NCBI RefSeq assembly: GCF_010389155.1
Contig: NC_057765.1
Coordinates: forward strand, 1,116,001-1,180,000
Origin: Erigeron canadensis
Taxonomy: Eukaryota > Streptophyta > Magnoliopsida > Asterales > Asteraceae
Reading direction: 5' to 3'
DNA length: 64,000 nt
Below the pieces are notes generated by a model that made no database searches, was not told the DNA's origin, and worked only from the letters and a program-made list of their open reading frames with translations. Shown here one piece after another: positions 1,190 through 29,403 of this stretch. A program made the position numbers and the translations under genes. How positions within the stretch are numbered: the first letter of the stretch is position 1; the number at the start of each line of letters is the position of its first letter.

Positions 1190-1883
1190 GGATTCCAGTG
1201 ATAGATTGAGGTTATAAACCCGACGGTGAAGGTGAGTTCATAGCCCTTACCTTGTATGGGGTGAAAAGTATACTTGTTTTCGTTTTGCTTATATGATCGT
1301 TATATGTTCGTTTATTTATCATATCAAGGTTATGATCGTTTAACTATTGAATCAAGGTATTATGATCGTTTATTTATTGACTCAAGGCTTTATTATGGGT
1401 TACAAGTTCGTTATATGATCGTTTGTTGATTGAAACGAGGTTATATGTTCGTGTTGTGATGAAAGATGAATAACCGTTGATATCACGACACTTGCTTCTT
1501 ATTGTTAAAACTTACGAACTCATCGACTTTATGTTGACACATTTTAGTACAATTTTCACGTAATCAAGTGAATCAAAGATGTGATAGATGATTGTATTGC
1601 ATGTGTTAGGACTGAGCTTGGACTTTTGTGGATCCGTGATTCATTGCTCCCGTTTACGGGTTATGCCTAGGATCGTTAGCCGTCATTTGCTATATTTTTG
1701 TAAACTATTGATGGTGTTGTGCTCTTAGCTTGTGCATTATTTGATCCAATACTTGTATTTGTATTTGAATTATGTATGGATTGCTTCAATCCTTCAATGC
1801 ATTTAATTGTCTCTACTTAATTTTCATGTCACGCTGAGCTTTTCTTATAATGCTTCATATTTCCGCCTTGTTAGGGTGTTACA
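1190..1883 (+). mobile_element. 3' part of an LTR (truncated)
   Basis: The tail reads CGCCTTGTTAGGGTGTTACA and stops at 1883, a typical Ty3/gypsy LTR end. The upstream block around 1509-1565 (ACGAACTCATCGACTTTATG...) matches a block near the end of the intact LTR at 3597-6268, so it is a related family. Bases 1280-1445 hold about four imperfect copies of a roughly 40-bp unit containing ATGATCGTTTATTTATTGA. The 5' end is not visible. Confidence 0.55.
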
Positions 1884-2022
1884 ACCTTTCATTTTGATGA
1901 GATAGTTAAACTAATACTAGCACAATATCAACACAATGCGGCAAGGTGATGGCGGTGGTGGCGTCAAATGGTGTAGGTAATTGATGTAAATGTGTTTGAT
2001 TCAAATGGATTAAGTAGAGATA

Positions 2023-2589
2023 TCTACCAATAAACTAAAACAGGATTAACATGTTATTCAAATGACACGTGGCATAATCCTTGATTGACACGTGTCTTTT
2101 TAATTTATTTATTTTGTTAAATTAACTTTTTTAGTTGTATATAAATTCAATTTTCTTATTAGACTTTGAATACTCTAATTCTTGGCTTATTAATATAAAA
2201 TACATTATAACCTTATTTGATGATCGTTTTCTTATTAATAAATTGTATATTTTTCTTTATCAATTATTCAACTCCTATTATTTATATTAATTATAAGAAG
2301 TTATTGACATGAAGATTCAAAAATTTGAGTTTACGATCTGAAATTGCAAGGCTATTTGTCATCGTTCACTATGCTTACAAGTTCTGATTTTGATGTGGCT
2401 TTAAAAATTTAAGGTAAATCCAAAACTCTAACTAAAAATATATTATATTTATTATTACTGTTTATTATAATTTAGCTTCGATCATCGGTTTACTTTAACC
2501 ACAATTTATTTCATACTTACGAATCATGTATGAGGCATATTTGAATTTCTTTTTGATACGATCTATATAACTACCGTACATCGTACATA
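2023..2589 (+). mobile_element. Truncated Helitron, same family as 45202-46619
   Basis: It begins TCTACCAATAAACTAAAACA after an A, matching the 5' end of the complete copy at 45202. The 3' region (2470-2586) matches 46490-46605, up to the first part of the terminal hairpin (CCGTAC..GTAC). It then diverges before the hairpin closes and lacks the terminal CTAG. No coding capacity. Confidence 0.65.
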
Positions 2590-2824
2590 AAACCGATGTG
2601 GGACAGGTTACTTCACATAAAACTTGTTTATTTTCATGTATTTTTTTATTGTGTGCATGAACTAATCTCAAAAAGTTATTGTGTGCATAGTCAACGGGTC
2701 AACGTGAAAGTGGTGACCAACTAACTTTTTACCCGGTGACTTTTGTTTACTATGAGACTCTTGAACAAGTTTCCTGAATACAATAAAACTGACCTAGAGT
2801 TCGTGCACACAATAACTTTTCAGG
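2590..2824. repeat. Short inverted repeat region
   Basis: AAAAGTTATTGTGTGCATAG near 2672 is repeated inverted near 2803-2822 (GTGCACACAATAACTTTT), and a further copy of ATTGTGTGCATGAAC sits near 2648. This looks like a small non-coding foldback or the edge of an LTR. No gene is visible. Confidence 0.45.
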
Positions 2825-3596
2825 TTTAAATCTGATTTTAGTTTTATAAAATGACATCTCAAGATAGATATTTCCTTATCTAACATGTTAGTTAGGTCCA
2901 GATTTACTGGACTCGCTCCAGACGAGAAAACTGAAGCCCTCTGAAGATTTGTCCAGATATTATGAGAAGACCAGTGAACCATTTACTTGTACATGAATCT
3001 GGATTCCACTAGATAGGTTCACTGGACTTTACTCCAGTCAAGATCATTCCACTGAAGACATTCTCACTAAAGTCGAAGACTGAAATCTGAAGAAAGATGA
3101 ATGAAAAATGGCGGGGCCCACTGGCAGTCTTACCAGATCTCCAGACTGGAGTCCTTGTCAGTGTTCAAGATCTTACAAGTCTGAACACTGATTACAAGGA
3201 TTTGACTTTATGCCTTTACATGCTTTTATCCGGACAATCCATTTGTCTTTTGTTAAAAGCCTTACACGCATGTAAAGGTGGTTGGTTAATAAGTTGACAA
3301 GTCACTATTCTTGTACTTTAACCAATGTATCTAAGGAATTAAAGTTATTTCCCTAAATGCATGTAACCATATTTGTACGGCAAAAAGAATATTATATTTA
3401 TTCCTTTTTCCTATAAATACCAAGTCATTTCTTTTGTCCAAATCACTTTTGCAATTTGGTGCATTTGCCTAAATACTCTCGATCTTAACAGTTATACTTC
3501 ACAACTTTAAGTATTTCGATCAAGTAATTTATTTAGCAAATATAGATCACTTGTAACTCATAGGTTGTTTAGATACTTATTTTTGTAATATCTAGG
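2825..3596 (+). mobile_element. Left portion of an older copia-type LTR (insertion target of the gypsy element)
   Basis: A TATA box (CCTATAAATACC, about 3411-3422) is followed by leader-like sequence and a block running to CTAGG at 3596. The match continues at 20512 with CTAGGTTCCGCAAGAACCTT, so the LTR was split by the 3597-20511 insertion. The order TATA / leader / TTGTAA..TCTAGGTTCCGC resembles SIRE/Maximus-type Ty1/copia LTRs known in dicots. That family name is inference. The 66-codon ORF here is not supported as a gene. Confidence 0.5.
3592..3596 (+). repeat. Target-site duplication (left), CTAGG
   Basis: CTAGG directly precedes the 5' LTR (TGTGACATTT...) and recurs at 20512-20516 directly after the far 3' LTR (..GGGGTGTGACA). 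A 5-bp duplication is standard for Ty3/gypsy integration. It shows that the two outermost LTRs belong to one insertion event. Confidence 0.92.
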
Positions 3597-4403
3597 TGTG
3601 ACATTTGTCACCAAAAATGGTAATTTATTATAGTCTCTAACTTACATTCCAAATTTCTTGACTAGTCAATATGCCTATATAGTATAACAAGCATAGAAAT
3701 GTGGTGATCATTTCCAATATGGGATTTCTATTACTTGATATTCAATAGTTTAGGATTGAGATATTTGATCTTCCTAAACGTAGATGACTATAACTATCCC
3801 CGTAATTTCTAGACTTGTAGTTGTTAGTCATATTTATTTCTAGACATTGATAAATTAGTATACGCTATTTAGTGGTGAACGAAATCAATAATTATAAAAG
3901 TAATATATAATTAGTATAAGTAGTAAGATGGTAATAGTAATAGTAAAATATCATATGTTTAGTAAAAAATTTTAGTCATATATATATTACCACAATTTAA
4001 TGGTGAGCAAGGAATTTTAATTCCATTAGAATTCTTATGATACATTAAGTCTAATCATAAACTAACTAAAACACTTATCTCCATATATATATATAATAAG
4101 TATACCCTAAATAATAAAAAAAAAAAAAAAACAAACCAAAACCCTTCTTGATTTTCTTTGCCGATCAACAAACAAACATCACAACATAGAATATTTTTTT
4201 TTTTATTATTAATCATCTCATTGTCAAAGCAAACTTTGGTAAGTTTAATTATAATTCTATTGAATCTTGATTTAAATTACAATTAATAATAGAATTCTTA
4301 AAGATTATATTCTATTCTTCTTTTCAAGGTATCTAAGAAGAAGATCATCAATCTTGGGGTAAAATCACTTGTCTTCTCTTTTCATATATATTAGTCTTTT
4401 TAA

Positions 4404-4434
<31 letters not shown>

Positions 4435-6268
4435 AGCATATTTTTTTTTATTAATTTTTATTTATAAGTAACCTATTTGATGAATATATATTATGGCAAA
4501 TTTATAATAATGAATGAAAGGGTTTTTTTTAGGGTTAAATCAAAAGCTTGAAGTATAAATCATATTAATGTTAAAGTTTAAGTATTTAATGAAGCATAAT
4601 AATTAATGTAATAAAAGAAATCCAATTATGAAGGCATAAAAATCATAATAACAGATTTAATTAGGTGTTGGAAAGATTTGAAAGTTTATATATAAATATT
4701 AGTTGTAGTAGTCTTTAAAACAGTAAGTTTGAGTTATTTCAGAATCTGGACAGATTCGTTTTGTTAACTTTGAAAGGTCGTATCTTGGTCATGGGAGATG
4801 GTTAAGTCACGTTTTTGGTGTCTAAAATTAAGTTCAGGAAGTCTACTTTCTGGTGGAAGCGGTTTCGTGTCAAAATATGAAGTTTAAGGTTGTCAAACGA
4901 ATTTTATAACAAAACTGCGCAAAGCTGAGTTTTCCGAACAGATTTTGGTCGACTTCAAATAGTCATATCTTGGTCGATTTTATGAACTGGACAATTATTT
5001 TTCTCCAGAAATTTTTTTGAGATGTTAAGATTGTACAGTAAAAAAATTGGATTTTTTTGAATCTTCGAAGGCCCTTAACTTTTATAAAACTTTTCTGTGC
5101 GCGAACAGTGATTTTTCTGACTAGTCTGTAATCATTGAATTTTTAAAAATAGTTAACGTGCCAAATAAATTATGTAAAAATTCATGTAAGTATATAACAC
5201 TCTAAGGTAACAGTAGTTAAGATTTGGAATCTTGAATCATTCGTTTCATCCTAATAAAAAATAGATAAAGTTACCAAAAAAATTTCAGTTAATATGAACT
5301 TGTAGAATTTAATCTTAAATCAGTAAAACAAATATTATATATTAAGTTATGTGACTTGTAACTTAATAATATATGACAAATCAATTGTGAATATTTTGAA
5401 AGTAGCCATATGTGTATTTCATCAAATACGAGTTACAATGGACGGTTCTTGACCATGTCCATAATTGTAACTTGTTCATATTTATATGTTATGTAGATTC
5501 TAGCGACCTTGTTGGATTTGCATAACTACTTGCTTGTCGAGGTGAGTTTCGTGGCCCCTTTTTATATTATTTCTTTGGGGAAAATGATGCTCAAAACACT
5601 TTTCATTTCTTTACTAGCTGTGCCAAAACTTGTTTGTTTTCATGGACAAATACGTGTAATTATGAAATTGTGTATGCTAGCTCGTTTGTATTGATTTCTT
5701 TGATGCAATAGATGTCTGTTGATATCTATTGAAGACTATTGGATAACTATCGACCAACTTTATACTCCAGCTGGTAGTTGTTGGTATTTAAAGCATGATT
5801 GAGTTGTTAATAGGAGTGATGGAGATTGTGTTGTTGGATAACTATGATGACATTGATCAGTATTTAGTATGCTACTACATGTTTATATTTACACTATTGT
5901 CCAAAACTTGATATATCATGCACAGCAAACTCATTTGTATTCCTTTAAACCTACGAACTCACCAACATTATGTTGACATTTTCGAGCATTCATTTTCAGG
6001 TAATAACAATGTTTAAGAAGATTGAGCTTATGGACTTTAGGAAGACCAATAAAGAGATCCTTCATGGACTCCTAGATTGCATGTGAAACGTTGAACGCTA
6101 TTTGCAATTATTACTTCTTTGCTATTTGAGGCGTGCTGCCTAGACTTTCCGTTTATGGAATTTACATTTATTTGAATTTCATTTAGTATGACTCTATTAT
6201 AAAGTCCATGTGCCATTGCTATATCTTTTAGTCATATCCTACGATTCCGCCTAAGGTGGGGTGTGACA
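3597..6268 (+). repeat. 5' LTR of the gypsy element (2,672 bp)
   Basis: Starts TGTGACATTTGTCACC and ends GGTGGGGTGTGACA, just before the primer binding site. It matches 17836-20511 almost base for base; the visible differences are mainly homopolymer or TA-run lengths and one A/G change (near 4640 versus 18884). A (TA)n tract at 4081-4096 followed by a leader-like stretch (ACCCTTCTTGATTTTC) suggests the promoter and transcription start near 4110-4140. Candidate 5' splice sites are seen at 4238 (TTGGTAAGTTT) and 5541 (GAGGTGAGTTT). ORFs inside it are not genes. Confidence 0.93.
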
Positions 6269-6271
6269 GAT

Positions 6272-6283
6272 TGGTATCAGAGC
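6272..6283 (+). other. Primer binding site, initiator tRNA-Met
   Basis: TGGTATCAGAGC lies 3 bases after the 5' LTR. It is complementary to the 3' end of plant initiator tRNA-Met, the usual primer for minus-strand synthesis in plant LTR elements. Confidence 0.93.
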
Positions 6284-6516
6284 CGTGGTTATAGAGAATT
6301 AGGTGGTTTGGCCTAGACTATAACCTAAGTACCCTCATATAGTGTACATTATAGGAACTATTTGTGCATCGTATATGTGTGAGTACTTTCATTAGATAGC
6401 ACTAGTTATGTGAGCCTTATATTTGCATTTAATTGTTAATTATGATGAAGCCTTATGTGCTTAGATTAGTGCAAAGTTTCAGCCTGTAATTTTAACGTAG
6501 CTAGTTTTACTTAGTC

Positions 6517-6942
6517 ATGGCACGTACAAAGAAAACAGCCTGTAAGAGTTCCGCATGGAGGGACATAATCATCCGTCGACAACTTAAAAGGGACGCCGCA
6601 GCTAACAAGGAAACCCCCGCTCAAGAACCATCTCAGAAGCCTAGAGTTTCCTCTGAAAGCGAACCGTCAGAAGATCCTAACTACTACTCCAAGACAGTTA
6701 TAATCATCGATTCTGACAGCGAGCCGGAGGAAGAACCGGACTATGATTCTAAGGCAGACCCCGAAAGCGTTCATAAGGGAAAGACAATGGAGGCTACGAT
6801 AAAGGACAACAGAAGCTATAGTCCTACTAGCTCAGTAAGCTCTCAAGAGAGCCGGATCGGACCAGCACGACAACAAGCTCCTTATCCTCCCACCATTTCC
6901 TCCAACTCCCCTTATGACGCCACTTGCACGTGGGAGGGCTAG
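6517..6942 (+). CDS. Extra ORF upstream of gag: histone H3-tail-like N-terminus plus SIM-like acidic region (141 aa)
   Basis: Unrecognised protein lying between the primer site and gag. Seen: a true ATG in good context (GTCATGG). After Met, residues 1-11 read ARTKKTACKSS against H3 ARTKQTARKST, so K4, K9 and S10 are kept and R8 is Cys. Further H3-like blocks follow in the same order: RRQL (H3 RKQL, 17-20), an AA pair, K-x-x-PA (K27-S-A-P-A) and KPR (KPHR). Then come an acidic Ser-rich stretch, the hydrophobic core V61-I-I-I64 followed by DSDSE (a textbook SUMO-interacting pattern), and an internal duplication SEPxExPxYxSK (48-59 and 68-79). Residues 85-141 are Ser/Pro-rich and polar. No membrane segment and no histone fold. 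Family knowledge: H3 tails are bound by chromodomains, and this element's integrase ends in one. Inference: chromatin mimicry or targeting. Only one copy is seen; the second contig starts downstream of it. A chance or otherwise-named ORF0 remains possible. Confidence 0.72.
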   Translation: MARTKKTACKSSAWRDIIIRRQLKRDAAANKETPAQEPSQKPRVSSESEPSEDPNYYSKTVIIIDSDSEPEEEPDYDSKADPESVHKGKTMEATIKDNRSYSPTSSVSSQESRIGPARQQAPYPPTISSNSPYDATCTWEG

Positions 6943-7192
6943 CCTTTACGGACTATCTAGGAATCCTATCGAACTTGCATTAGCTTCTTTTTTCTTACTT
7001 TCTTAGTTTTGGATTTTATTCTTATGTCTTGGATTCCTACTTTCAAATTTGGAAATTTCTTGGATTTATAAATTTTTTTAGATTGATTGATTAATCGAAA
7101 TGTCGTGCTTGGTATATGGATCTATGTGTTTTGTGGCAATTATTTATGAAGGATGTGCTGAATTTGTGACATATGAATTTGGACGATAAAAA

Positions 7193-7260
7193 CATGTGTG
7201 GTGGGATGTAGTTGTAATTACGGTGCGCAACGTAATTACAAATACATCACAACACACATG
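7193..7260 (+). promoter_or_regulatory. 30-bp-arm hairpin with self-complementary loop
   Basis: The arms 7193-7222 and 7231-7260 are inverted copies matching at 27 of 30 positions; all three mismatches are G opposite A. The 8-base loop (GTGCGCAA) contains the 6-base palindrome TGCGCA. A palindrome exposed in a hairpin loop upstream of gag is how retroviral dimerisation/packaging signals look; that role here is inference. An inserted palindromic MITE is an alternative. Confidence 0.75.
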
Positions 7261-7379
7261 CGCTTATATGACCAAGTTTGTTGATCAAACTCAACACAAT
7301 TAACAAATTGGACAGGTGTAAGAAATTTTGCCATGAGTAGTAGTTATTCATTGAAAGTCTTCATCAAGTACTTATAAAT

Positions 7380-7396
7380 CCTTTCTCTTTGTGTAG
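7380..7396 (+). promoter_or_regulatory. Candidate 3' splice site directly upstream of gag
   Basis: CCTTTCTCTTTGTGTAG ends three bases before the gag ATG (7400). A pyrimidine run closed by TAG is a good acceptor and would let a spliced RNA skip the upstream ORF. A weaker TTTTACTTAG lies two bases before the ATG of the upstream ORF (6517). Confidence 0.4.
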
Positions 7397-7399
7397 AAA

Positions 7400-10174
7400 A
7401 TGAATAGAGGAGGAAGAAATGGAGGACGTGGAGGTAGAGGTGGTGGTCGTGGTGGAAATAATGGGGTTAATGATGGAGAAGGTGATGGTGGCAATCCGGA
7501 TATTGCAAACATGATCACTCAGCAAATAGCTGCCGCTATTCCTACTATTGTTACTCAAGTGACCGCTGCTGTTCTTAATGCAAACAACAATAACCCTAAT
7601 AATAATAACAATAATGAGAATAACAATAACAACAATGAGAACAACACTAACAATAATGAGAACAATAATAACAATAATGAAAATAACAATGATGGTAATC
7701 AGAATAACAACATCATTGGAGGCAATAATAATGGATGCACCTATAGGGAGTTTCAATATTGTAAACCACCAGATTTTGATGGCAAGGGAGGAGCATTGGC
7801 AGCCACTAGATGGATAGAGAAAATGGAAGCTGTCATGGATATTAGCAACTGTGCAGAGAATCAAAAGGTGAAGTATGCCGCAGCTTCACTGACTAATAAA
7901 GCATTGACATGGTGGAACACTGAGATACAAGCTAGGGGTAGAGTAGCAGCTGTGGGGATGACATGGGACGAGTTTAAGGAATTACTACTGGAAGAATTCT
8001 GTCCGAAAAATGAAATGCAGAAGTTGGAAAATGAATTTTGGAATCATTCAATGGTAGGAGCCAAACATGCCGCTTACACTGATCGGTTTTATGAGCTTGC
8101 CAAACTAGTACCTCATCTTGTTAGACCTGAATCAAATAGGATCCAGAGGTACATCTATGGTCTTGTTCCCCAAATTCGTGGGCTTGTGTCAGCAACTGAG
8201 CCAACCACGATTCAAAGTGCTATTCAGAAAGCAGGATCTTTAACGGATGAAATGGTGAGAAATGGGTCATTGTCTAAGGTTAATGAGAAAAGGAAGGATG
8301 GTACTGAGACAAGTAGGTCAAAGAATACTGATGGAAATAACAAGAAGGCAAAAATGGCAACAGGGTTGATGGCAACGGATGCGACTAAGATCGGATATAC
8401 GGGTTCTGCTCCAAAGTGTACAAAATGTCAATTCCATCATTTCCAAAATTCACCTTGCCGTTTGTGTACAAACTGCAACCGATTTGGACACCTTGCTAGA
8501 GACTGTCGAGTGGGAGTCAAGCAGGTGGCTCCGGTGAATGCTGTTAACCCGATAAATAACCGTGGAACGTGCTATGAGTGCGGTAGTCATAACCATTACC
8601 GCAACACGTGTCCAAATTTGAACCGAGCATGGGGTCAGAGGGGTAATAATCCAAATCAAGTACTAGCTATTGGTGGAACTCAGAATCAAGGAAATAATCA
8701 GGGACAAAGAGCTAACAATCAGAATCAAGTGGTAGCTAATGGAGGGAATCGGAATCAAGGGAATAATGCCAACCAAGCCCGTGGTAGAGCTTTTGTCATG
8801 GTAGCAAATGAAGCTCGTCAAGATCCAAATATTGTGACGGGTACGTTTTCCTTAAACAATCACCTTGCTACAGTATTATTCGACTCTGGTGCTGAGTACA
8901 GTTTTGTTTCTATTAAGTTTATGCCACTCCTAGATAGAGAACCCATAATATTGAATACTTATTTCTTGGTTGAGGTAGCTAATGGAAAATTTGATAGAGT
9001 TGATAGAATCGTTAATGATTGTACCTTAGAAATAGAAGGTCATCTGTTCAGTGTTAACCTTCTGCCTTTCTCGTTAAGGAGTTTTGACGTAGTTATTGGT
9101 ATGGATTGGCTATCGAAGCATAGAGCCGAGATAATTTGCTATGAGAAGGTGGTCCGTATACCGCTAGGAAATAGTGAAATGCTACTCATATATGGGGAGC
9201 GGGTGGAGGAAAATCAGAAGCACCTCATGGGCATTCAGGCTAACGAGAAGAAACTCGAAGATATTCCTATCGTACGGGATTTTCCACAAGTTTTTCCCGA
9301 AGATCTAACAGGATTACCTCCTGTAAGACAAGTTGAATTCCGTATAGATCTTATTCCGGGAGCGACGCCAGTCGCCAAAGCTCCATACCGTTTAGCACCT
9401 ACCGAAATGCAAGAACTGTCTAATCAACTCCAAGAGCTCCAAGAAAAAGGCTTCATCAGACCTAGTCATTCGCCTTGGGGAGCACCAGTATTGTTTGTCA
9501 AGAAAAAAGATGGTTCGTTTCGTATGTGCATCGATTACCGGGAGTTGAACAAACTGACAGTTAAGAATCGTTACCCTCTTCCTAGAATCGACGACTTATT
9601 CGATCAACTTCAAGGTGCGAAGTTCTTCTCGAAAATAGACCTTCGGTCCGGATATCATCAACTCAGAGTTAATGAAGCAGATATTCCAAAAACAGCATTC
9701 AGGACTCGATATGGACATTTTGAGTTCTTAGTCATGCCTTTCGGTTTGACTAATGCACCCGCAGTTTTCATGGATTTGATGAACCGTGTATGCAAACCCT
9801 ATCTCGATAAGTTTGTTATTGTATTCATTGATGACATTTTAATCTATTCGAAGTCTAAGGAAGAACATGAATCTCACTTGAAAATGATTCTTGAACTACT
9901 TTGGAAAGAGAGATTGTTTGCTAAGTTTTCGAAGTGCGACTTTTGGTTACAAGAAGTTCATTTCCTTGGGCATGTAGTGAATAGTGAAGGAATCCATGTT
10001 GACCCCAGTAAGATCGAAGCAGTAAAAGATTGGAAGACTCCTACGACGCCATCAGAGGTTCGTTCATTTCTAGGCTTGGCCGGGTATTATCGACGATTCA
10101 TCGCTAACTTCTCGAAAATCGCTCAACCACTTACTCAGTTAACCCAAAAGGATAAGAAGTTTGATTGGGGATAA
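7400..10174 (+). CDS. Gag-protease-reverse transcriptase part of gag-pol (contig 1 copy)
   Basis: 924 codons open from ATG at 7400. Residues 1-20 are an RGG-type Gly/Arg run and about 61-106 are poly-Asn. A retrotransposon Gag domain follows (about 120-300, with the WW and F-C-P motifs of plant gypsy Gag). Two CCHC zinc knuckles lie at C356-C369 and C391-C404. The aspartic protease motif D495-S-G-A498 comes next, then reverse transcriptase with the catalytic F-I-D-D at 809-812. Gag and pol share one frame, as in many plant chromoviruses. The frame breaks near 10170, where two bases (GA) present in the second copy (GGGGAGATAAG) are missing, so RNase H is out of frame. The break is probably an assembly error, because the other copy is open there. 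Antisense and +1 ORFs are shadows of the poly-Asn codons. Confidence 0.93.
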
Positions 10175-12132
10175 GCAAGAAAAGGCATTCCAAACACTGA
10201 AAGAAAATCTATGTAACGCTCCTATTCTTACCCTCCCCGATGGTCCGGACGATTTTGTAGTTTATTGTGATGCTTCAAATCAAGGCTTGGGATGTGTACT
10301 AATGCAAAGGGGTAAAGTGATTGCTTATGCCTCTCGGCAACTCAAAATCCATGAGAAAAACTACACCACCCATGACTTGGAGCTTGGTGCAGTGGTTTTT
10401 GCACTCAAATGTTGGAGGCACTATCTCTATGGGACGAAAAGTGTGATCTACACCGATCACAAGAGTCTCCAACATATTTTCGATCAAAAGGAGTTGAATA
10501 TGCGACAGAGGCGGTGGATTGAATTATTTAGTGACTATGATTGTGAGATTCGTTACCATCCGGGTAAGGCGAATGTTGTGGCTGACGCGTTAAGTAGGAA
10601 AGAAAGAATTAAGCCAAAGCGAGTACGAGCATTGATCATGACAATTCATTTGGATATAAAATCAATGATAAGTCGGGCTCAAGATGAAGCATTGCAGAAT
10701 ATCAATGTAGAAAAAGAAGGTTACGTGACCTTGATCAGCAAATGGAGCGTAAAGAGGATGGAGTACTGTACTTTGTAGGACGAATATGGATTCCACTTGC
10801 AGGTGGATTAAGAACAGTGATTTTGGACGAGGCACATAGTACGAGATACTCCGTACACCCGGGAGCTGATAAAATGTATCACGACCTTAAGGATTTGTAT
10901 TGGTGGCCGGAATGAAAAGAGATATAGCCAGTTATGTCAGTGGATGCTTAACATGTCTAAAAGTCAAAGCTGAACATAATAAACCACCGGGTTTATTAGT
11001 GCAACCACAACTTCCCGAATGGAAATGGGAAAGAATAACCATGGATTTTATTACAAAGCTGCCAAGAACTAGTAGTGGGCATGACAAGATTTGGGTGATA
11101 GTAGATAGATTGACAAAGTCTGCGCACTTTATAGCTATCCGTGAGAGCTACACAATGGAGCAGTTAGCAAGGATTTATATAAAGGAGATAGTGGCAAAGC
11201 ATGGAATTCCGGTGTCTATTATATCTGATCGTGATAGTCATTTCACATCACGATTTTGGCAGTCATTGCAAAAGGCATTGGGAACACGTTTAGACCTGAG
11301 TACGGCTTACCATCCTCAACCGATGGCCAAAGTGAGCGTACTATTCAGACTTTGGAAGATATGCTTAGGGCATGTGTGATGGACTTTGGGGAAGCTGGGA
11401 TATTCACCTTCCTCTAGTTGAGTTCTCGTACAATAATAGTTATCATTCAAGTATTAAGTGTGCTCCATTTGAAGCTTTATATGGACGGAAATGTCGCTCA
11501 CCTGTTGTTTGGGCTGAGGTTGGAGAAAGTCAGTTGATTGGTCCGGAGATTGTACAAGAGACAACAGATAGGATTTTTCAAATCAAAGAAAGACTGAAAG
11601 CAGCTAGAGACCGCCAAAGAGCTACGCCGACAAACGGCGAAGGCCTTTAGAATTCAATGTTGGTGATAAAGTGTTACTTAAAGTGTCGCCTTGGAAGGGC
11701 ATGGTTCGATTTGGAAAGAAAGGAAAGTTGGCACCAAGGTACGTTGGACCGTTTGAAATTGTTGAACGGATTGGTCCGGTAGCTTATCGTTTAAGACTAC
11801 CTCAGAACTAAGTAGGATACATGATACATTCCACGTGTCAAATCTCAAGAAGTGTCTCGCGGATACAAGTTTGCATGTACCGCTAGACGACATTAAGATT
11901 GATGACAAGTTACATTTGTGGAAGAACCAGTTGAGATCATGGATCGAGAACTTAAGACATTAAAACGTAGTAAAATTCAATTGTCAAGGTCCGGTGGAAT
12001 TCAAAGCGAGGCCAGAGTTTACTTGGGAGCGAGAGGATCAAATGAAAATCAAATATCCACATCTATTTGATGCTACGTCTTCAACCGTAACTCCAACAAA
12101 TTTCGAGACGAAATTCTCTCAAGTAGGGAGAC
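10161..12132 (+). pseudogene. RNase H-integrase-chromodomain part of gag-pol (contig 1 copy, several frameshifts)
   Basis: Continues the pol polyprotein. RNase H spans 10161-10620 (YCDAS, then the E and TDH positions). The integrase zinc region (about 10855-10975) is followed by the catalytic core, with first Asp in MDFI (about 11042), second Asp in ISDRD (about 11226) and Glu in the SER region (about 11334). The GKK-containing C-terminal region leads to a chromodomain-like tail (about 11925-12070). Single-base changes relative to the second copy break the frame near 10720, 10908, 11315-11330, 11620, 11805 and beyond, with density rising toward the gap at 12953. This pattern fits unpolished contig-end sequence better than biological decay. 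Confidence 0.85.
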
Positions 12133-12952
12133 TGTGACATCTGTCACCAAAACTGGTAATTTATTATAGTCTCTAACTTACATTCCAAATTTCTTGACTA
12201 GTCAATATGCCTATATAGTATAACCATAGAAATGTGGTGATCATTTCCAATATGGGATTCTATTACTTGATATTCAATAGTTTAGGATTGAGATATTTGA
12301 TCTTCCTAAACGTAGATGACTATAACTATCCCCGTAATTTCTAGACTTGTAGTTGTTAGTCATATTTATTTCTAGACATTGATAAATTAGTATACGCTAT
12401 TTAGTGGTGAACGAAATCAATAATTATAAAAGTAATATATAATTAGTATAAGTAGTAAGATGGTAATAGTAATAGTAAAATATCATATGTTTAGTAAAAA
12501 TTTTAGTCATATATATATCCACAATTTAATGGTGAGCAAGGAATTTTAATTCCATTAGAATTCTTATGATACATTAAGTCTAATCATAAACTAAAAACAT
12601 AAACACTTATCTCCATATATTATATAATATAGTATACCTAAATAATAAAAAAAAAAAAAACAAAAACCAAACCCTTCTTGATTTTCCTTTGCCGATCAAC
12701 ACAAAATCACAATAGAATATATTTTTTTTTATTATTATTAATCATCTCATTGTCAAAGCAAACTTTGGTAAGTTTAATTATAATTCTATTGAATCTTGAT
12801 TTAAATTACAATTAATATAAAATTCTTAAAGATTATATTCTATTCTTCTTTCAAGGTATCTAAGAAGAAGATCATCAATCTTGGGGTAAAATCACTTGTC
12901 TTCTCTTTCAATATATTAGTCTTTTTAATTATTAATTATATATATATATATA
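12133..12952 (+). repeat. Partial LTR (first ~820 bp) ending at the assembly gap
   Basis: Begins TGTGACATCTGTCACC right after the purine-rich tract and follows the first ~830 bp of the other LTRs. It carries many one- to three-base deletions (for example near 12223, 12257, 12520 and 12593) before running into N. It is best read as the 3' LTR seen from the left contig. Confidence 0.88.
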
Positions 12953-13052
12953 NNNNNNNNNNNNNNNNNNNNNNNNNNNNNNNNNNNNNNNNNNNNNNNN
13001 NNNNNNNNNNNNNNNNNNNNNNNNNNNNNNNNNNNNNNNNNNNNNNNNNNNN
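12953..13052. other. Assembly gap, 100 N
   Basis: Exactly 100 N, the conventional placeholder for a gap of unknown size. The sequence right of it (from 13053) restarts at the position equivalent to 7350, inside the same element. Confidence 0.99.
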
Positions 13053-15426
13053 ATTGAAAGTCTTCATCAAGTACTTATAAATCCTTTCTCTTTGTGTAGA
13101 AAATGAATAGAGGAGGAGAAATGGAGGACGTGGAGGTAGAGGTGGTGGTCGTGGTGGAAATAATGGTTAATGATGGAGAAGGTGATGGTGGCAATCCGGA
13201 TATTGCAAAACATGATCACTCAGCAAATAGCTGCCGCTATTCCTACTATTGTTACTCAAGTGACCGCTGCTGTTCTAATGCAAACAACAATAACCAAATA
13301 ATACAATATAATAAATAATGAGAATAACAATAACAATAATGAGAATAACCATCACAACAATGAGAACAACAATATGAGAACAAATATAACAATATGAAAA
13401 TAACAATGATGGTAATCAGAATAACAACATCATTGAGGCAATAATAAGATTATGAAACCTATAGGGAGTTTCAATATTTGTAAGCCACCAGATTTTGATG
13501 GCAAGGAGGGCATTGGCAGGCCACTAGATGGATAGAGGAAATGGAAGCTGTCATGGATATTAGCAACTGTGCAGAGAATCAAAGGGTGAAGTATGCCGCA
13601 GCTCACTGACTAAAAAGCATTGACATGGTGGAACACTGAGATACAAGCTAGGGGTAGAGTAGCAGCTGTGGGGATGACATGGGACGAGTTTAAGGAATTA
13701 CTACTGAAGATTCTGTCCGAAAATGAAATGCAGAAGTTGGAAATGAATTTTGGAATCATTCAATGGTAGGAGCCAAACATTGCCGCTTACAATGATCGGT
13801 TTATGAGCTTGCCAAACTAGTACTCACCTTGTGAGACTGATCAAATAGGATCCAAGGTACATCTATGGTCTTGTTCCCCAAATTCGTGGGCTTGTGTCAG
13901 CAACTGAGCAACCACGATTCAAAGTGCTATTCAGAAAGCAGGATCTTTAACGGATGAAATGGTGAGAATGGGTCATGTCTAAGGTTAATGAGAAAAGGAA
14001 GGATGTACTGAGACAAGTAGGTCAAAGAATACTGATGGAAATAACAAAAGAAAAAAAAAATGGCAACAGGGTTGATGGCAACGGATGCGACTAAGATCGG
14101 ATATACGGGTTCTGCTCCAAAGTGTACAAAATGTCAATTCCATCATTTCCAAAATTCACCTTGCCGTTTGTGTACAAAACTGCAACCGATTTGGACACCT
14201 TGCTAGAGACTGTCGAGTGGGAGTCAAGCAGGTGGCTCCGGTGAATGCTGTTAACCCGATAAATAACCGTGGAACGTGCTATGAGTGCGGTAGTCATACC
14301 ATTACCGCAACACGTGTCCAAATTTGAACGAGCATGGGGTCAGAGGGGTAATAATCCAAATCAAGTACTAGCTATTGGTGGAACTCAGAATCAAGGAAAT
14401 ATCAGGGACAAAGAGCTAACAATCAGAATCAAGTGGTAGCTAATGGAGGGAATCGGAATCAAGGGAATAATGCCAACCAAGCCCGTGGTAGAGCTTTGTC
14501 ATGGTAGCAATGAAGCTCGTCAAGATCCAAATATTGTGAGGGTACGTTTTCCTTAAACAATCACCTTGCTACGTATTATTCGACTCTGGTGCTGAGTACA
14601 GTTTGTTTCTATTAAGTTTATGCCACTCCTAGATAGAGAACCCATAATATTGAATACTTATTCTTGGTTGAGGTAGAATGGAAAATTTGATAGAGTTGAT
14701 AGAATCGTTAATGATTGTACCTTAGAAATAGAAGGTCATCTGTTCAGTGTTAACCTTCTGCCTTTCTCGTTAAGGAGTTTTGACGTAGTTATTGGTATGG
14801 ATTGGCTATCGAAGCATAGAGCCGAGATAATTTGCTATGAGAAGGTGGTCCGTTATACCGCTAGGAAATAGTGAAATGCTACTCATATATGGGAGCGGGG
14901 TGGAGGAAAATCAGAAGCACCTCATGGGCATTCAGGCTAACGAGAAGAAACTCGAAGATATTCCTATCGTACGGGATTTTCCACAAGTTTTTCCCGAAGA
15001 TCTAACAGGATTACCTCCTGTAAGACAAGTTGAATTCCGTATAGATCTTATTCCGGGAGCGACGCCAGTCGCCAAAGCTCCATACCGTTTAGCACCTACC
15101 GAAATGCAAGAACTGTCTAATCAACTCCAAGAGCTCCAAGAAAAAGGCTTCATCAGACCTAGTCATCGCCTTGGGGAGCACCAGTATTGTTTGTCAAGAA
15201 AAAAGATGGTTCGTTTCGTATGTGCATCGATTACCGGAGTTGAACAAACTGACAGTTAAGAATCGTTACCCTTTCCTAGAATCGACGACTTATTCGATCA
15301 ACTTCAAGGTGCGAAGTTCTTCTCGAAAATAGACCTTCGGTCCGGATATCATCAACTCAGAGTTAATGAAGCAGATATTCCAAAAACAGCATTCAGGACT
15401 CGATATGGACATTTGAGTTCTTAGTC
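13053..15426 (+). pseudogene. Gag-protease-RT region, second copy, indel-rich
   Basis: This is the same sequence as 7350-9737, with frequent single-base insertions and deletions (near 13115, 13166, 13208, 13275-13450, 13600-13860, 14045, 14180, 14300, 14500-14680, 15165, 15235 and 15412). As a result only short open pieces remain. The zinc knuckles (14166-14320) and the DSGA site (14582) are still readable. Error density is highest next to the gap and falls to almost none after 15430. Compared with the intact frame at 7400-10174, the errors look technical. Confidence 0.85.
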
Positions 15427-16191
15427 ATGCCTTTCGGTTTGACTAATGCACCCGCAGTTTTCATGGATTTGATGAACCGTGTATGCAAACCCTATCTCGA
15501 TAAGTTTGTTATTGTATTCATTGATGACATTTTAATCTATTCGAAGTCTAAGGAAGAACATGAATCTCACTTGAAAATGATTCTTGAACTACTTTGGAAA
15601 GAGAGATTGTTTGCTAAGTTTTCGAAGTGTGACTTTTGGTTACAAGAAGTTCATTTCCTTGGGCATGTAGTGAATAGTGAAGGAATCCATGTTGACCCCA
15701 GTAAGATCGAAGCAGTAAAAGATTGGAAGACTCCTACGACGCCATCAGAGGTTCGTTCATTTCTAGGCTTGGCCGGGTATTATCGACGATTCATCGCTAA
15801 CTTCTCGAAAATCGCTCAACCACTTACTCAGTTAACCCAAAAGGATAAGAAGTTTGATTGGGGAGATAAGCAAGAAAAGGCATTCCAAACACTGAAAGAA
15901 AATCTATGTAACGCTCCTATTCTTACCCTCCCCGATGGTCTGGACGATTTTGTAGTTTATTGTGATGCTTCAAATCAAGGCTTGGGATGTGTACTAATGC
16001 AAAGGGGTAAAGTGATTGCTTATGCCTCTCGGCAACTCAAAATCCATGAGAAAAACTACACCACCCATGACTTGGAGCTTGGTGCAGTAGTTTTTGCACT
16101 CAAATGTTGGAGGCACTATCTCTATGGGACGAAAAGTGTGATCTACACCGATCACAAGAGTCTTCAACATATTTCAATCAAAAGGAGTTGA
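15427..16191 (+). CDS. Reverse transcriptase C-terminus and RNase H, second copy
   Basis: 254 open codons equal to the RT palm and thumb plus RNase H of the first copy. The catalytic F-I-D-D of RT is encoded about 15518-15529. RNase H shows YCDAS (about 15958) and later E and D sites. Here the frame runs through the place (15864) where the first copy has lost two bases. It ends by a frameshift near 16172 (ATTTCAATC against ATTTTCGATC in copy 1). This is one piece of the broken polyprotein, not a separate gene. Confidence 0.85.
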
Positions 16192-16987
16192 ATATGCGAC
16201 AGAGGCGGTGGATTGAATTATTTAGTGACTATGATTGTGAGATTCGTTACCATCCGGGTAAGGCGAATGTTGTGGCTGACGCGTTAAGTAGGAAAGAAAG
16301 AATTAAGCCAAAGCGAGTACGAGCATTGATCATGACAATTCATTTGGATATAAAATCAATGATAAGTCGGGCTCAAGATGAAGCATTGCAGAATATCAAT
16401 GTAGAAAAAGAAGGGTTACGTGACCTTGATCAGCAAATGGAGCGTAAAGAGGATGGAGTACTGTACTTTGTAGGACGAATATGGATTCCACTTGCAGGTG
16501 GATTAAGAACAGTGATTTTGGACGAGGCACATAGTACGAGATACTCCGTACACCCGGGAGCTGATAAAATGTATCACGACCTTAAGGATTTGTATTGGTG
16601 GCGGGGAATGAAAAGAGATATAGCCAGTTATGTCAGTGGATGCTTAACATGTCTAAAAGTCAAAGCTGAACATAATAAACCACCGGGTTTATTAGTGCAA
16701 CCACAACTTCCCGAATGGAAATGGGAAAGAATAACCATGGATTTTATTACAAAGTTGCCAAGAATAGTAGTGGGCATGACAAGATTTGGGTGATAGTAGA
16801 TAGATTGACAAAGTCTGCGCACTTTATAGCTATCCGTGAGAGCTACACAATGGAGCAGTTAGCAAGGATTTATATAAAGGAGATAGTGGCAAAGCATGGA
16901 ATTCCGGTGTCTATTATATCTGATCGTGATAGTCATTTCACATCACGATTTGGCAGTCATTGCAAAAGGCATTGGGAACACGTTTAG
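16104..16987 (+). pseudogene. RNase H end and integrase N-terminal/core region, second copy, frameshifted
   Basis: This covers the end of RNase H (ADALS motif about 16277-16291), the integrase zinc-binding region (HPGA about 16552, C-x2-C about 16642) and the first two catalytic aspartates (about 16739 and 16920). Single-base losses near 16766 (AGAATAGTAG against AGAACTAGTAG) and 16950 (GATTTGG against GATTTTGG) break the frame. Copy 1 is intact at both places, so each copy repairs the other. Confidence 0.83.
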
Positions 16988-17862
16988 ACCTAAGTACGGC
17001 TTACCATCCTCAAACCGACGGTCAAAGTGAGCGTACTATTCAGACCTTGGAGGATATGCTTAGGGCATGTGTGATGGACTTTGGGGGAAGCTGGGATATT
17101 CATCTTCCTCTAGTTGAGTTCTCGTACAATAATAGTTATCATTCAAGTATTAAGTGTGCTCCATTTGAAGCTTTATATGGACGGAAATGTCGCTCACCTG
17201 TTGTTTGGGCTGAGGTTGGAGAAAGTCAGTTGATTGGTCCGGAGATTGTACAAGAGACAACAGATAGGATTTTTCAAATTAAAGAAAGATTGAAAGCAGC
17301 TAGAGATCGCCAAAAGAGCTACGCCGACAAACGGCGAAGGCCTTTAGAATTCAATGTTGGTGATAAAGTGTTACTTAAAGTGTCGCCTTGGAAGGGCATG
17401 GTTCGATTTGGAAAGAAAGGAAAGTTGGCACCAAGGTACGTTGGACCGTTTGAAATTGTTGAACGGATTGGTCCGGTAGCTTATCGTTTAAGACTACCTC
17501 AAGAACTAAGTAGGATACATGATACATTCCACGTGTCAAATCTCAAGAAGTGTCTCGCGGATAGAAGTTTGCATGTACCGCTAGACGACATTAAGATTGA
17601 TGACAAGTTACATTTTGTGGAAGAACCAGTTGAGATCATGGATCGAGAACTTAAGACATTAAAACGTAGTAAAATTCAAATTGTCAAGGTCCGGTGGAAT
17701 TCAAAGCGAGGGCCAGAGTTTACTTGGGAGCGAGAGGATCAAATGAAAATCAATATCCACATCTATTTGATGCTACGTCTTTCAACCGTAACTCCAACAG
17801 AATTTCGAGACGAAATTCTCTCAAGTAGGGGAGACTGTGACATTTGTCACCAAAAATGGTAA
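16960..17862 (+). CDS. Integrase C-terminal half with chromodomain, second copy
   Basis: 300 open codons. The catalytic Glu of the DD35E triad lies in the QSERT segment (about 17024-17035). The integrase C-terminal domain with its [10 protein letters not shown] segment follows (about 17410-17440). A chromodomain-like tail spans about 17611-17770, with FVEEP at the start and a W-x-x-E sequence near the end. One base is missing near 17750 and one is extra near 17781, shifting about ten codons; copy 1 is normal there. The reading frame crosses the purine tract and ends at TAA 17860-17862, that is, 27 bases inside the 3' LTR. Chromodomains of this class direct integration to heterochromatin marked on histone H3. 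Confidence 0.88.
17823..17835 (+). other. Polypurine tract
   Basis: AAGTAGGGGAGAC immediately precedes the 3' LTR start (TGTGACA). It is the expected primer for plus-strand synthesis. The first copy has AAGTAGGGAGAC at 12121-12132, one G shorter. Confidence 0.8.
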
Positions 17863-18641
17863 TTTATTATAGTCTCTAACTTACATTCCAAATTTCTTGA
17901 CTAGTCAATATGCCTATATAGTATAACAAGCATAGAAATGTGGTGATCATTTCCAATATGGGATTTCTATTACTTGATATTCAATAGTTTAGGATTGAGA
18001 TATTTGATCTTCCTAAACGTAGATGACTATAACTATCCCCGTAATTTCTAGACTTGTAGTTGTTAGTCATATTTATTTCTAGACATTGATAAATTAGTAT
18101 ACGCTATTTAGTGGTGAACGAAATCAATAATTATAAAAGTAATATATAATTAGTATAAGTAGTAAGATGGTAATAGTAATAGTAAAATATCATATGTTTA
18201 GTAAAAAATTTTAGTCATATATATATTACCACAATTTAATGGTGAGCAAGGAATTTTAATTCCATTAGAATTCTTATGATACATTAAGTCTAATCATAAA
18301 CTAACTAAACACTTATCTCCATATATATATATATAAGTATACCCTAAATAATAAAAAAAAAAAAAAACAAACCAAAACCCTTCTTGATTTTCTTTGCCGA
18401 TCAACAAACAAACATCACAACATAGAATATATTTTTTTTTATTATTATTATCATCTCATTGTCAAAGCAAACTTTGGTAAGTTTAATTATAATTCTATTG
18501 AATCTTGATTTAAATTACAATTAATAATAGAATTCTTAAAGATTATATTCTATTCTTCTTTTCAAGGTATCTAAGAAGAAGATCATCAATCTTGGGGTAA
18601 AATCACTTGTCTTCTCTTTTCATATATATTAGTCTTTTTAA

Positions 18642-18678
<37 letters not shown>

Positions 18679-20511
18679 CATATCTTTTTTATTTATTAAT
18701 TTTTATTTATAAGTAACCTATTTGATGAATATATATTATGGCAAATTTATAATAATGAATGAAAGGGTTTTTTTTAGGGTTAAATCAAAAGCTTGAAGTA
18801 TAAATCATATTAATGTTAAAGTTTAAGTATTTAATGAAGCATAATAATTAATGTAATAAAAGAAATCCAATTATGAAGGCATGAAAATCATAATAACAGA
18901 TTTAATTAGGTGTTGGAAAGATTTGAAAGTTTATATATAAATATTAGTTGTAGTAGTCTTTAAAACAGTAAGTTTGAGTTATTTCAGAATCTGGACAGAT
19001 TCGTTTTGTTAACTTTGAAAGGTCGTATCTTGGTCATGGGAGATGGTTAAGTCACGTTTTTGGTGTCTAAAATTAAGTTCAGGAAGTCTACTTTCTGGTG
19101 GAAGCGGTTTCGTGTCAAAATATGAAGTTTAAGGTTGTCAAACGAATTTTATAACAAAACTGCGCAAAGCTGAGTTTTCCGAACAGATTTTGGTCGACTT
19201 CAAATAGTCATATCTTGGTCGATTTTATGAACTGGACAATTATTTTTCTCCAGAAATTTTTTTGAGATGTTAAGATTGTACAGTAAAAAAATTGGATTTT
19301 TTGAATCTTCGAAGGCCCTTAACTTTTATAAAACTTTTCTGTGCGCGAACAGTGATTTTTCTGACTAGTCTGTAATCATTGAATTTTTAAAAATAGTTAA
19401 CGTGCCAAATAAATATGTAAAAATTCATGTAAGTATATAACACTCTAAGGTAACAGTAGTTAAGATTTGGAATCTTGAATCATTCGTTTCATCCTAATAA
19501 AAAATAGATAAAGTTACCAAAAAAATTTCAGTTAATATGAACTTGTAGAATTAATCTTAAATCAGTAAAACAAATATTATATATTAAGTTATGTGACTTG
19601 TAACTTAATAATATATGACAAATCAATTGTGAATATTTTGAAAGTAGCCATATGTGTATTTCATCAAATACGAGTTACAATGGACGGTTCTTGACCATGT
19701 CCATAATTGTAACTTGTTCATATTTATATGTTATGTAGATTCTAGCGACCTTGTTGGATTTGCATAACTACTTGCTTGTCGAGGTGAGTTTCGTGGCCCC
19801 TTTTTATATTATTTCTTTGGGGGAAAATGATGCTCAAAACACTTTTCATTTCTTTACTAGCTGTGCCAAAACTTGTTTGTTTTCATGGACAAATACGTGT
19901 AATTATGAAATTGTGTATGCTAGCTCGTTTGTATTGATTTCTTTGATGCAATAGATGTCTGTTGATATCTATTGAAGACTATTGGATAACTATCGACCAA
20001 CTTTATACTCCAGCTGGTAGTTGTTGGTATTTAAAGCATGATTGAGTTGTTAATAGGAGTGATGGAGATTGTGTTGTTGGATAACTATGATGACATTGAT
20101 CAGTATTTAGTATGCTACTACATGTTTATATTTACACTATTGTCCAAAACTTGATATATCATGCACAGCAAACTCATTTGTATTCCTTTAAACCTACGAA
20201 CTCACCAACATTATGTTGACATTTTCGAGCATTCATTTTCAGGTAATAACAATGTTTAAGAAGATTGAGCTTATGGACTTTAGGAAGACCAATAAAGAGA
20301 TCCTTCATGGACTCCTAGATTGCATGTGAAACGTTGAACGCTATTTGCAATTATTACTTCTTTGCTATTTGAGGCGTGCTGCCTAGACTTTCCGTTTATG
20401 GAATTTACATTTATTTGAATTTCATTTAGTATGACTCTATTATAAAGTCCATGTGCCATTGCTATATCTTTTAGTCATATCCTACGATTCCGCCTAAGGT
20501 GGGGTGTGACA
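17836..20511 (+). repeat. 3' LTR of the gypsy element (2,676 bp)
   Basis: It runs TGTGACATTTGTCACC to GGTGGGGTGTGACA and is nearly identical to 3597-6268, with differences mostly in TA and homopolymer runs. Near-identity of the two LTRs means a recent insertion, because LTRs are identical at integration. Followed directly by CTAGG. Confidence 0.93.
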
Positions 20512-20516
20512 CTAGG
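20512..20516 (+). repeat. Target-site duplication (right), CTAGG
   Basis: Second copy of the 5-bp duplication found at 3592-3596. Confidence 0.92.
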
Positions 20517-27750: not shown

Positions 27751-29403
27751 TTATGAAGATGACATTATAGACATCAATGGTTGATTTTCAATGTCACAAT
27801 CCAAAGATTTATCTCCTCCAACTGCACCTCCGTTGCATGTTAACATCTCTGCTTTTTTTGCTTGATGCTCCCAATCTGTGGTCCCTACCACATATAACAT
27901 CAGCCCTGCACAACAAACCTGGGCCGAAAGTAACCCGAGCCAAAGCCCGATAAACCCGACCCCAAGCCCAAACCCAAGCCCCACCGCAATTGGCATCCCA
28001 ACAATATAAAATGCCCCCAGATTCACGTTGGCTGCAGTGGTTGGTCGGGCTGTGCCCCGCACAACCCCACATCCAACTGTCTGGGGACAGTTTCCGAGCT
28101 CACAAAGCCCGATGATAGGCAGGGCCGTAGAAGTTAATCTTAAAATATCTAAATCATTTGTAAACATCCTACCCCAATTTTCTCTCATTGACGTAGCAAA
28201 TATCATTGCAGATATCCCCATTAATCCAGAAAAAAATACTGACACCATTGCTGACACTCGGGCCTTATCGGGCCGGTTTGCCCCGAGCTCATTCCCGACC
28301 CGGGTTGAAACCGCGAAACTAAGTGAAGATGGAAAAACATACAACAAAGCCGTAGTTTGAATCAAAATCCCCATGGAGGCAACGGTCGCATTCGGGTCAA
28401 CCAAAAGACCGCAAAGGACGATCATGATCTCATACCACCACCATTCGAGACAGACCGAGACACAGCTCGGTGCTGCCAACCTAACCAACGGGCCCCACCC
28501 GGTTAAACATTCACGGGTCGGGCTCGTCCACGTGGGTAAATGCAAACCAGTCCACCAAACATAAAAAACAAGCGAAACCAACACCACGAAATTCGATATC
28601 GAGGAAGCACTCGCCACCCCAACGACACCCAGCCCGAATCGATAAACAAGCAAATAGTTCAATGGCAGTTGTAGTAACGTGCCAATGAAGGAAGCTAGAG
28701 TCAAAGGAACCGTAATGCCTTGAGCCCGAAGGTAAATCCGGGTCGGGTGGATAAATGAATTGGATACCAAATCTGGTAAGGTGAACACAAGATATGTTTG
28801 GGCCACACGTGCAATGTTTTGGTCTTGATGTAAATATATCAAAATCCAGGCCGTGTTGAGCCACAAAAATGCAATCGGCACACAAACCACTAAAAGAAAA
28901 ATAACGGCCCGATGTAAAGTTATAGATAACACTTTGGGCCTATGGGCCCCAAATGCTTGTGAGCATAGCGGTTCCATACCGAGTGCTAAACCGGCTAAAA
29001 CAGAATAGCCGGTAATGTTGGCAAAGGCTATAGCCAATGAGCCAGCAGCCAGCTCGGCTTCACCGAGTTGGCCCAAAAATAACATGGATATGATGGACCG
29101 TGTGTACAAAATTAAAGCGGTTAAAGCAATAGGTGAAGATAATTTAAATAAGGCTTTTGTTTCATTAAATATTTCATTCGGTGTTGGTACTATGATAGTA
29201 GTGGTTACTATGTTGTTTTTGGTCTTGTTGATTTTTTGGTTGTTATTTTTTGGGTTTTGATGATCAAAATGGGATTTGGGTGTTAATGGAAAAGAATGGA
29301 GGTCAAGGTAAAAATGAGGTGGTGGGGGTGGTGGAGGAGGAGGGTGGTGATCGGAAGTTTTCATGGAGACGGCGGTGGGAGGGGTGGTGTTTGGATTACA
29401 CAT
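27751..29403 (-). CDS. DTX49: MATE efflux transporter, DETOXIFICATION 49-like
   Basis: Single-exon 550-aa membrane transporter of the multidrug and toxic compound extrusion family. It should export small organic compounds in exchange for a cation across the plasma membrane or an endomembrane. The start is the ATG at 29403-29401 (MCNPN); the longer frame to 29445 begins at GTG and is not used. A cytosolic N-terminus of about 80 residues holds a run of nine prolines and an Asn/Lys-rich stretch. About 12 hydrophobic segments follow in two repeats. Characteristic segments include GQLGEAELAAGSLAIAFANI, GLALGMEPLCSQAFGAHR, CLEWWWYEIMIVLCGLL and STRVGNELGANRP. The MCNP start, the CLEWWWYE segment and the intronless structure fit the plant DTX48-51 group. 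Members of that group are linked to abscisic acid transport, iron homeostasis and organ growth; this gene's substrate cannot be read from sequence. The frame is intact, making it the only confident host gene here. Assignment to 49 rather than 48, 50 or 51 is by resemblance only. Confidence 0.95.
   Translation of the reverse strand: MCNPNTTPPTAVSMKTSDHHPPPPPPPPPHFYLDLHSFPLTPKSHFDHQNPKNNNQKINKTKNNIVTTTIIVPTPNEIFNETKALFKLSSPIALTALILYTRSIISMLFLGQLGEAELAAGSLAIAFANITGYSVLAGLALGMEPLCSQAFGAHRPKVLSITLHRAVIFLLVVCVPIAFLWLNTAWILIYLHQDQNIARVAQTYLVFTLPDLVSNSFIHPTRIYLRAQGITVPLTLASFIGTLLQLPLNYLLVYRFGLGVVGVASASSISNFVVLVSLVFYVWWTGLHLPTWTSPTRECLTGWGPLVRLAAPSCVSVCLEWWWYEIMIVLCGLLVDPNATVASMGILIQTTALLYVFPSSLSFAVSTRVGNELGANRPDKARVSAMVSVFFSGLMGISAMIFATSMRENWGRMFTNDLDILRLTSTALPIIGLCELGNCPQTVGCGVVRGTARPTTAANVNLGAFYIVGMPIAVGLGFGLGVGFIGLWLGLLSAQVCCAGLMLYVVGTTDWEHQAKKAEMLTCNGGAVGGDKSLDCDIENQPLMSIMSSS

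Follow-up and report, generated by a model that had tools for sequence, protein, structure and literature searches.

An open reading frame (ORF) lies ahead of gag in a plant LTR retrotransposon, and its product would begin much as histone H3 does. This raises the question of whether the start was captured from a histone gene, mimics the H3 tail toward host chromatin proteins, or resembles H3 without any H3 role. The locus was examined within a stretch of 64,000 nucleotides of Erigeron canadensis (contig NC_057765.1, positions 1,116,001 to 1,180,000), here termed the window. A sequence-only reading of this stretch had proposed that one mobile element combines a mimic of the H3 tail with a chromodomain that reads it.

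A Tekay-like element with an extra ORF in its leader

Self-blastn and direct reading of the window revealed one insertion with a TSD, two LTRs and a primer-binding site (PBS), which we take to be of the tRNA-Met type (Table 1). Positions 13053-18666 were found by self-blastn to repeat positions 7350-12952 at about 97% identity. As a single TSD pair flanks the whole insertion, this repeat is probably an unmerged contig overlap within one insertion, with a tandem element as a possible alternative. The gag-pol copy that lies behind the 100-N gap (13053-18666) is noisy in frame.

The domains of gag-pol were found to be Ty3 capsid, RVP_2, RVT_1, RNaseH, integrase and Tf2-type SH3, with a weak chromodomain behind them; this gag-protease-RT-RNaseH-integrase order with a C-terminal chromodomain is that of a Tekay-type chromovirus (Ty3/gypsy). 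The element thus appears to be a Tekay-like Ty3/gypsy chromovirus, a label based on the chromodomain type, the long LTRs and the 5' extra ORF. The closest protein to the window gag-pol was that of the E. canadensis gene model LOC122584929 (P0002), at 94% over 98%. An asparagine-rich low-complexity stretch of Gag (7580-7740) is missing from P0002, either because its length varies among copies or because the gene model predicts a second intron there. Elsewhere in the window, the minus strand carries an intact 564-aa MATE transporter ORF (27751-29445; Pfam MatE, E 4.8e-69).

Table 1. Features of the element, with positions counted from the first base of the window.
Feature	Position	Strand	Remarks
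Left TSD, CTAGG	3592..3596	.	5 bp, read from sequence; right copy 20512-20516
5' LTR	3597..6268	+	2672 bp, 99.3% to 3' LTR; self-blastn, ends read
Primer-binding site	6272..6283	+	TGGTATCAGAGC; read from sequence
Well-conserved leader stretch	6493..6552	+	24 bases before ATG plus codons 1-12; identity to L009
5' extra ORF	6517..6942	+	141 aa, N-terminus basic, middle acidic; reads MARTKKTACKSSAWRD...
H3-like residues 1-11	6520..6552	+	ARTKKTACKSS in window; ARTKKTARKSS in most young-family copies
Internal repeat, first unit	6658..6699	+	SEPSEDPNYYSKTV; second unit SEPEEEPDYDSKAD at 6718-6759, 28/42 bases identical
SUMO-interacting-motif-like VIIIDSDSE	6697..6723	+	young subfamily only
Putative intron	6835..7396	+	donor TCA/GTAAGC, acceptor GTGTAG/AAAATG; implied by gene model LOC122584929; doubtful
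gag, protease and RT part of gag-pol	7400..10174	+	to frame break of window copy
Assembly gap	12953..13052	.	100 N; self-blastn, direct reading
Chromodomain, group II	17599..17754	+	W45 kept, Y24 and Y48 replaced; read from copy after gap
3' LTR	17836..20511	+	self-blastn, ends read

The frame is real and shared among copies

The extra ORF was read directly in the leader, between the PBS and the gag ATG, and its existence as a frame was confirmed. An ORF of at least 141 codons was obtained in none of 2000 dinucleotide shuffles of the leader and in 8 of 2000 block-wise shuffles, and T content is 17-19% from the ATG of the ORF to its stop compared to 38-39% before and after. A six-frame search of the 426-Mb assembly with the ORF, for which match counts are lower bounds, detected at least 56 matches, ranging from near-identical and full-length down to 38% identity. 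The other 55 matches were read in 39 stretches alongside the window, and in 22 of these 40 rows the 141-aa frame with its Met start was found to be open. This sense open frame between PBS and gag, conserved among copies, is what is described as a 5' aORF or ORF0. Length changes do not put the ATG and the C-terminal segment out of frame with each other in L042, L044 and L046; in L040 both ends of the ORF are in one frame with a locally shifted stretch between them, and in some older subfamilies the ORF is longer than 141 residues.

Over the whole ORF, dN/dS ranged from 0.52 to 1.03 and was below 1 in 20 of 21 pairs, which were drawn from seven copies of different subfamilies and included only 76-91 codons where L041 or L043 was a partner. 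The C-terminal segment is conserved only modestly above its surroundings, since five of the seven diverged copies show 68-78% identity in the 60 noncoding bases 3' of the stop. Taken together, the evidence of the frame for a coding past is weak to moderate. In L043 and L046 (contig C7), old extra-ORF copies were observed as inverted pairs within about 1.3 kb, an arrangement that could give rise to hairpin transcripts.

The ORF alone found no homologue among 5.8 billion proteins (candidates of 0.55-1.75 times its length). A search with the gag-pol protein reached P0002, which bears the ORF as an N-terminal fusion, and when residues 1-107 of P0002 were used as query, P0002 itself was the only match among 59 candidates. 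The prokaryote contigs, viral contigs and plasmids searched gave no match to the ORF. Pfam returned only BLM_N (E 0.0011) and PARP (E 3) on the ORF, both under the curated cut-off and put down to low complexity.

A gag search in which 150 of 1622 candidates were scored separated at least 34 candidates at 87-100% identity from at least 116 at 49-57%. No H3-like start was detected in the approximately 2.6 kb read upstream of gag in any of 20 sampled Tekay-like relatives (51-57% gag identity), and as far as sampled the extra ORF is confined to one low-copy chromovirus family. Many of these 20 relatives (L067-L086) start Gag with MVRTRANPN or a close form of it.

Likeness to the H3 tail covers residues 1-11

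After the initiator Met, most copies read ARTKKTARKSS and are identical to H3 (ARTKQTARKST) at 9 of 11 residues, compared to 8 of 11 for the window copy with its C8. When the first 45 residues were aligned with the H3 tail, the window scored 57, a value equalled by 3 of 20,000 shuffles, and P0002 scored 65, equalled by none of 50,000; the best score among 117 other Met-starting proteins from the gag-pol search was 30. The first 45 residues of P0002, run blind with phmmer against solved structures, matched 68 distinct sequences, and the best 60 of these 68 were all H3 or H3 variants (one of them Cse4), at a best E-value of only 0.31. The corresponding residues of the window gave one match, H3.Y, at E 2.6. 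Comparison of the first 45 residues with H3 by such a search thus returned the expected family for P0002 but no significant E-value, the likeness being too short for one, and a structure-library search with the whole ORF retrieved no histone at E up to 10. The likeness to H3 is specific and above what composition would give by chance.

Its extent is shorter than had been thought. The sequence-only reading had followed H3 through residues 17-40, with matching elements in the same order; this match is gone from the four oldest forms tested. Residues 13-45 were at shuffle level against H3 in L041, L043, L044 and both L046 copies (1631 to 4668 of 5000 shuffles as good) and borderline in young forms (46 to 58 of 5000; 225 of 20,000 for the window). 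The H3-like start therefore stands for residues 1-11, where it is above shuffles, and is lost beyond them in older forms. That the histone fold is missing was upheld: no similarity to H3 residues 41-136 was detected in the three frames downstream, and Pfam found no histone on the ORF.

Convergence fits the codons better than capture

Capture of an H3 gene has reportedly been proposed for some grass chromovirus extra ORFs. A captured fragment of a host H3 gene would account for the H3-like order beginning at the initiator Met and for the H3 residue Q5 that four old N-termini carry (those of L043 and L044 and two in L046). By contrast, the codon for Ser10 is TCN in all 16 distinct host H3 loci read and AGT in the element (ATT in one old copy), a difference that speaks against recent capture because the change needs two steps through another residue. 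The element and the host H3 loci share only 21 to 27 bases among the first 36, and the match to H3 ends at codon 12 in older forms with no histone fold in the three frames that follow. We regard capture as improbable, and convergence appears to fit these codons better than a recent capture would. Derivation from a Gag N-terminus is scarcely credible: several other Tekay-like Gags here begin MVRTRANPN and share an M-x-R-T-K/R start with the ORF, but the ORF start scores 17-24 against that Gag start and 37-65 against H3.

The start block is conserved, as are the bases before it

Conservation of the H3-like residues was examined in 37 readable N-termini, a set without L031, L036 and L038 (start out of frame) and L045 (no N-terminus) and with the plus-strand copy of L046 added. 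The key positions were found to be kept across the family: K9 and T6 are present in 37 of 37, K4 and S10 in 36 each and R8 in 33. Since the C8 of the window is R in those 33, the window copy resembles H3 less than most of its relatives do; apart from the window, C8 was detected only in the old copies L040 and L043. H3K9 methyltransferases are reported to need R8, and the window copy would for this reason be a poorer substrate for K9 methylation. In the old plus-strand copy of L046, K4 is replaced by T and R8 by H. In L031, L036 and L038, the common start region is out of frame (LSHGTYKENSHS), which may point to a sub-lineage that lacks the H3-like start.

At the nucleotide level, five of seven diverged copies share with L009 all 24 bases upstream of the ATG, and the remaining two share 22 and 21 of them; codons 1-12 are identical to L009 at 30-35 of 36 bases. 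The corresponding identities are 63-85% for codons 13-45, 64-80% for bases -60 to -25 and 72-96% for bases -150 to -61. Of the distinct changes in codons 1-12, 12 are nonsynonymous, a stop among them, and 2 are synonymous; set against a site ratio of about 28:8 this is near neutral, the copies compared including dead ones whose decay after insertion inflates the nonsynonymous count. These numbers weaken the case for purifying selection on the H3-like residues. Constraint may instead act on DNA or RNA, since the noncoding bases upstream are as well conserved as the codons.

The H3-like residues could accordingly be a by-product, with bases -24 to +36 held by a need of the DNA or RNA (initiation, packaging or regulation) or by recent shared ancestry, and the peptide having no H3 role. 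This is a serious possibility, to which we give somewhat less than an even chance. It would explain the unchanged upstream bases, the 12:2 count of nonsynonymous to synonymous changes and the lack of any synonymous change in codons 1-12 in 15 of 21 pairwise comparisons. Against it, 9 of 11 residues agree with the H3 tail, well beyond what composition yields by chance (0 of 50,000 shuffles), and the predicted RNA fold of the stretch around the ATG was no better than that of shuffles (z 0.04).

The SUMO-motif-like string is a young trait

The acidic middle of the window ORF does contain VIIIDSDSE, a string resembling a SUMO-interacting motif, and a comparable string arose in 14 of 20,000 shuffles. 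Its core is not conserved across the family: VIIIDSDSE was found in 29 of 40 rows and in none of the older subfamilies, in which the acidic repeat is kept but TVITV..., TIIEYQ... or AIMSQ... stands in its place. The motif was thus ruled out as a family trait and appears, by its distribution among copies, to be a young trait of one subfamily. The predicted protein would begin with the H3-like N-terminus, continue with acidic repeats and end in a C-terminal segment that is common to the older subfamilies.

A stand-alone ORF is favored over a fusion to Gag

In P0002, residues 1-106 are joined in frame to Gag over a 562-base GT-AG intron, and within these residues P0002 and the window differ solely at position 8 (R8 and C8, respectively). 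The H3-like part might on this basis be the first exon of Gag, in which case splicing of 6835-7396 would fuse residues 1-106 to Gag-Pol and particles would show the tail. LOC122584929 is exactly such a fusion; the donor reads GTAAGC, the acceptor lies 3 bases before the gag ATG, and the donor string is present in 31 of 40 rows. By contrast, GT is missing at that place in L040, L042, L044 and L046, coding-like composition continues beyond the donor to the stop of the ORF, and another E. canadensis gene model, P0030, begins at Gag. The part past the donor is also conserved: three old copies show 73-77% identity over residues 98-141, with dN/dS of 0.31-0.95 over 10 pairs, which lends modest support to a stand-alone ORF given the 68-78% identity of the noncoding bases after the stop. 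A first exon of Gag is considered unlikely. The favored reading is a stand-alone ORF, with P0002 as a fusion made by gene prediction; real alternative splicing of the ORF to Gag is possible.

The chromodomain lacks two of three cage residues

The integrase of the element does end in a chromodomain, weakly recognized by Pfam (Chromo PF00385, E 0.061, under the curated cut-off). When the window was aligned with 25 gag-pol relatives and with HP1 and LHP1, W45 was found in 24 of the 25 relatives as well as in the window, and no F, Y or W was present in the columns of Y24 or Y48. A Phe is common one column after Y24; were the alignment shifted, one cage residue might be retained. The window chromodomain, with TWExE and W45 and without Y24 and Y48, has the features of group II; another Tekay motif named in PMC3350952, (K/R)-X-(L/T)-R-X-(K/R), gave no exact match in it. 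Group II chromodomains are described, in the part of the source consulted, as lacking Y24 and usually Y48, with the partner of the plant members not found and one member co-localized with the HP1-like TFL2 (PMC3350952); the part consulted of a second source agrees on the missing cage residues (PMC6317226). Two of the three aromatic-cage residues being absent, the chromodomain is a poor candidate for a reader of methylated H3 tails, and the pairing of tail mimic and tail reader in one element is unsupported in that form.

Proposed role of the extra ORF

We propose that the ORF is probably a lineage-specific 5' extra ORF (ORF0) of a low-copy Tekay-like chromovirus family that encodes a stand-alone and most likely disordered accessory protein. 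Such a protein would be made from genomic RNA, would lose its initiator Met to leave A1 free, and would enter the nucleus. There it might offer an H3-tail-like peptide, as decoy or tether, to host readers and modifying enzymes of the H3 tail, a step to which we give a low probability.

True histone-tail mimicry, in which H3-tail proteins of the host would bind or methylate the N-terminus and the element would thereby evade silencing or tether its complexes, we rate no higher. It would agree with the retention of K9, K4, S10 and R8 in nearly all N-termini, with a likeness that ends just past the K4/K9/S10 unit and with a serine codon that suggests convergence. It is opposed by the 12:2 ratio, which gives no sign of protein-level selection in the H3-like block, and by the missing Y24 and Y48 of the element's own chromodomain. 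The substitutions at K4 and R8 in the plus-strand L046 copy, the loss of R8 in the window and the out-of-frame start region of L031, L036 and L038 count against the proposed role of the ORF as a whole. The fullest version is more doubtful again: an accessory protein evolved for the purpose would carry a free N-terminus (ARTKxTARKS) that mimics the H3 tail by convergence and not by gene capture, is read or methylated as H3 and counters silencing or steers integration, with the young subfamily perhaps having joined it to Gag by splicing and gained a SUMO-binding motif. The H3-tail-like start is the sole recognizable feature of the ORF and thus allows a cheap and direct peptide test of whether extra ORFs of plant LTR retrotransposons act on chromatin. 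Should the test of mimicry fail, the likeness would warn against inferring mimicry from eleven residues.

Comparison with known extra ORFs and histone mimics

Extra ORFs at the 5' side of Tekay elements have been published for grasses and sunflower, according to the parts consulted of PMC3485330 and PMC11728184. Like the ORF described here, the 5' aORF or ORF0 of rice Retrosat2, RIRE3 and RIRE8 and of sunflower Tekay group 2 lies between the 5' LTR and gag-pol on the same strand and, in elements with long LTRs, encodes a lineage-specific, fast-evolving protein, whereas the sunflower 5'aORF is of about 400 aa compared to 141 aa (same parts of PMC3485330 and PMC11728184). The word 'histone' is absent from those parts of the two papers and from the text of a review of extra ORFs (PMC7264820). 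No H3-like extra ORF appears in the portions consulted of PMC12786077, PMC9289625 and PMC3605345, and the titles and abstract openings returned by a literature search named no H3-tail mimic in a plant retrotransposon. With 5' extra ORFs of Tekay elements already published, the earlier statement that no description was known is too strong.

Steinbauerova et al. (2011) are said to have found that some chromovirus extra ORFs partly resemble histone H3, a likeness reportedly seen only in Poaceae and interpreted as capture of a gene. Those ORFs reportedly share with the present one a 5' position in a chromovirus and similarity to H3; by contrast, the present ORF is from a eudicot (Asteraceae), its likeness covers only 11 residues, and its codon use speaks against recent capture.

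Histone-tail mimics are also known from viruses, in which ARSK of influenza NS1 and ARKS of coronavirus ORF8 are internal or C-terminal and were tested experimentally. The ORF described here resembles these in placing a short H3-tail-like peptide on an unrelated protein, and differs in that its H3-like part is N-terminal and known from sequence alone.
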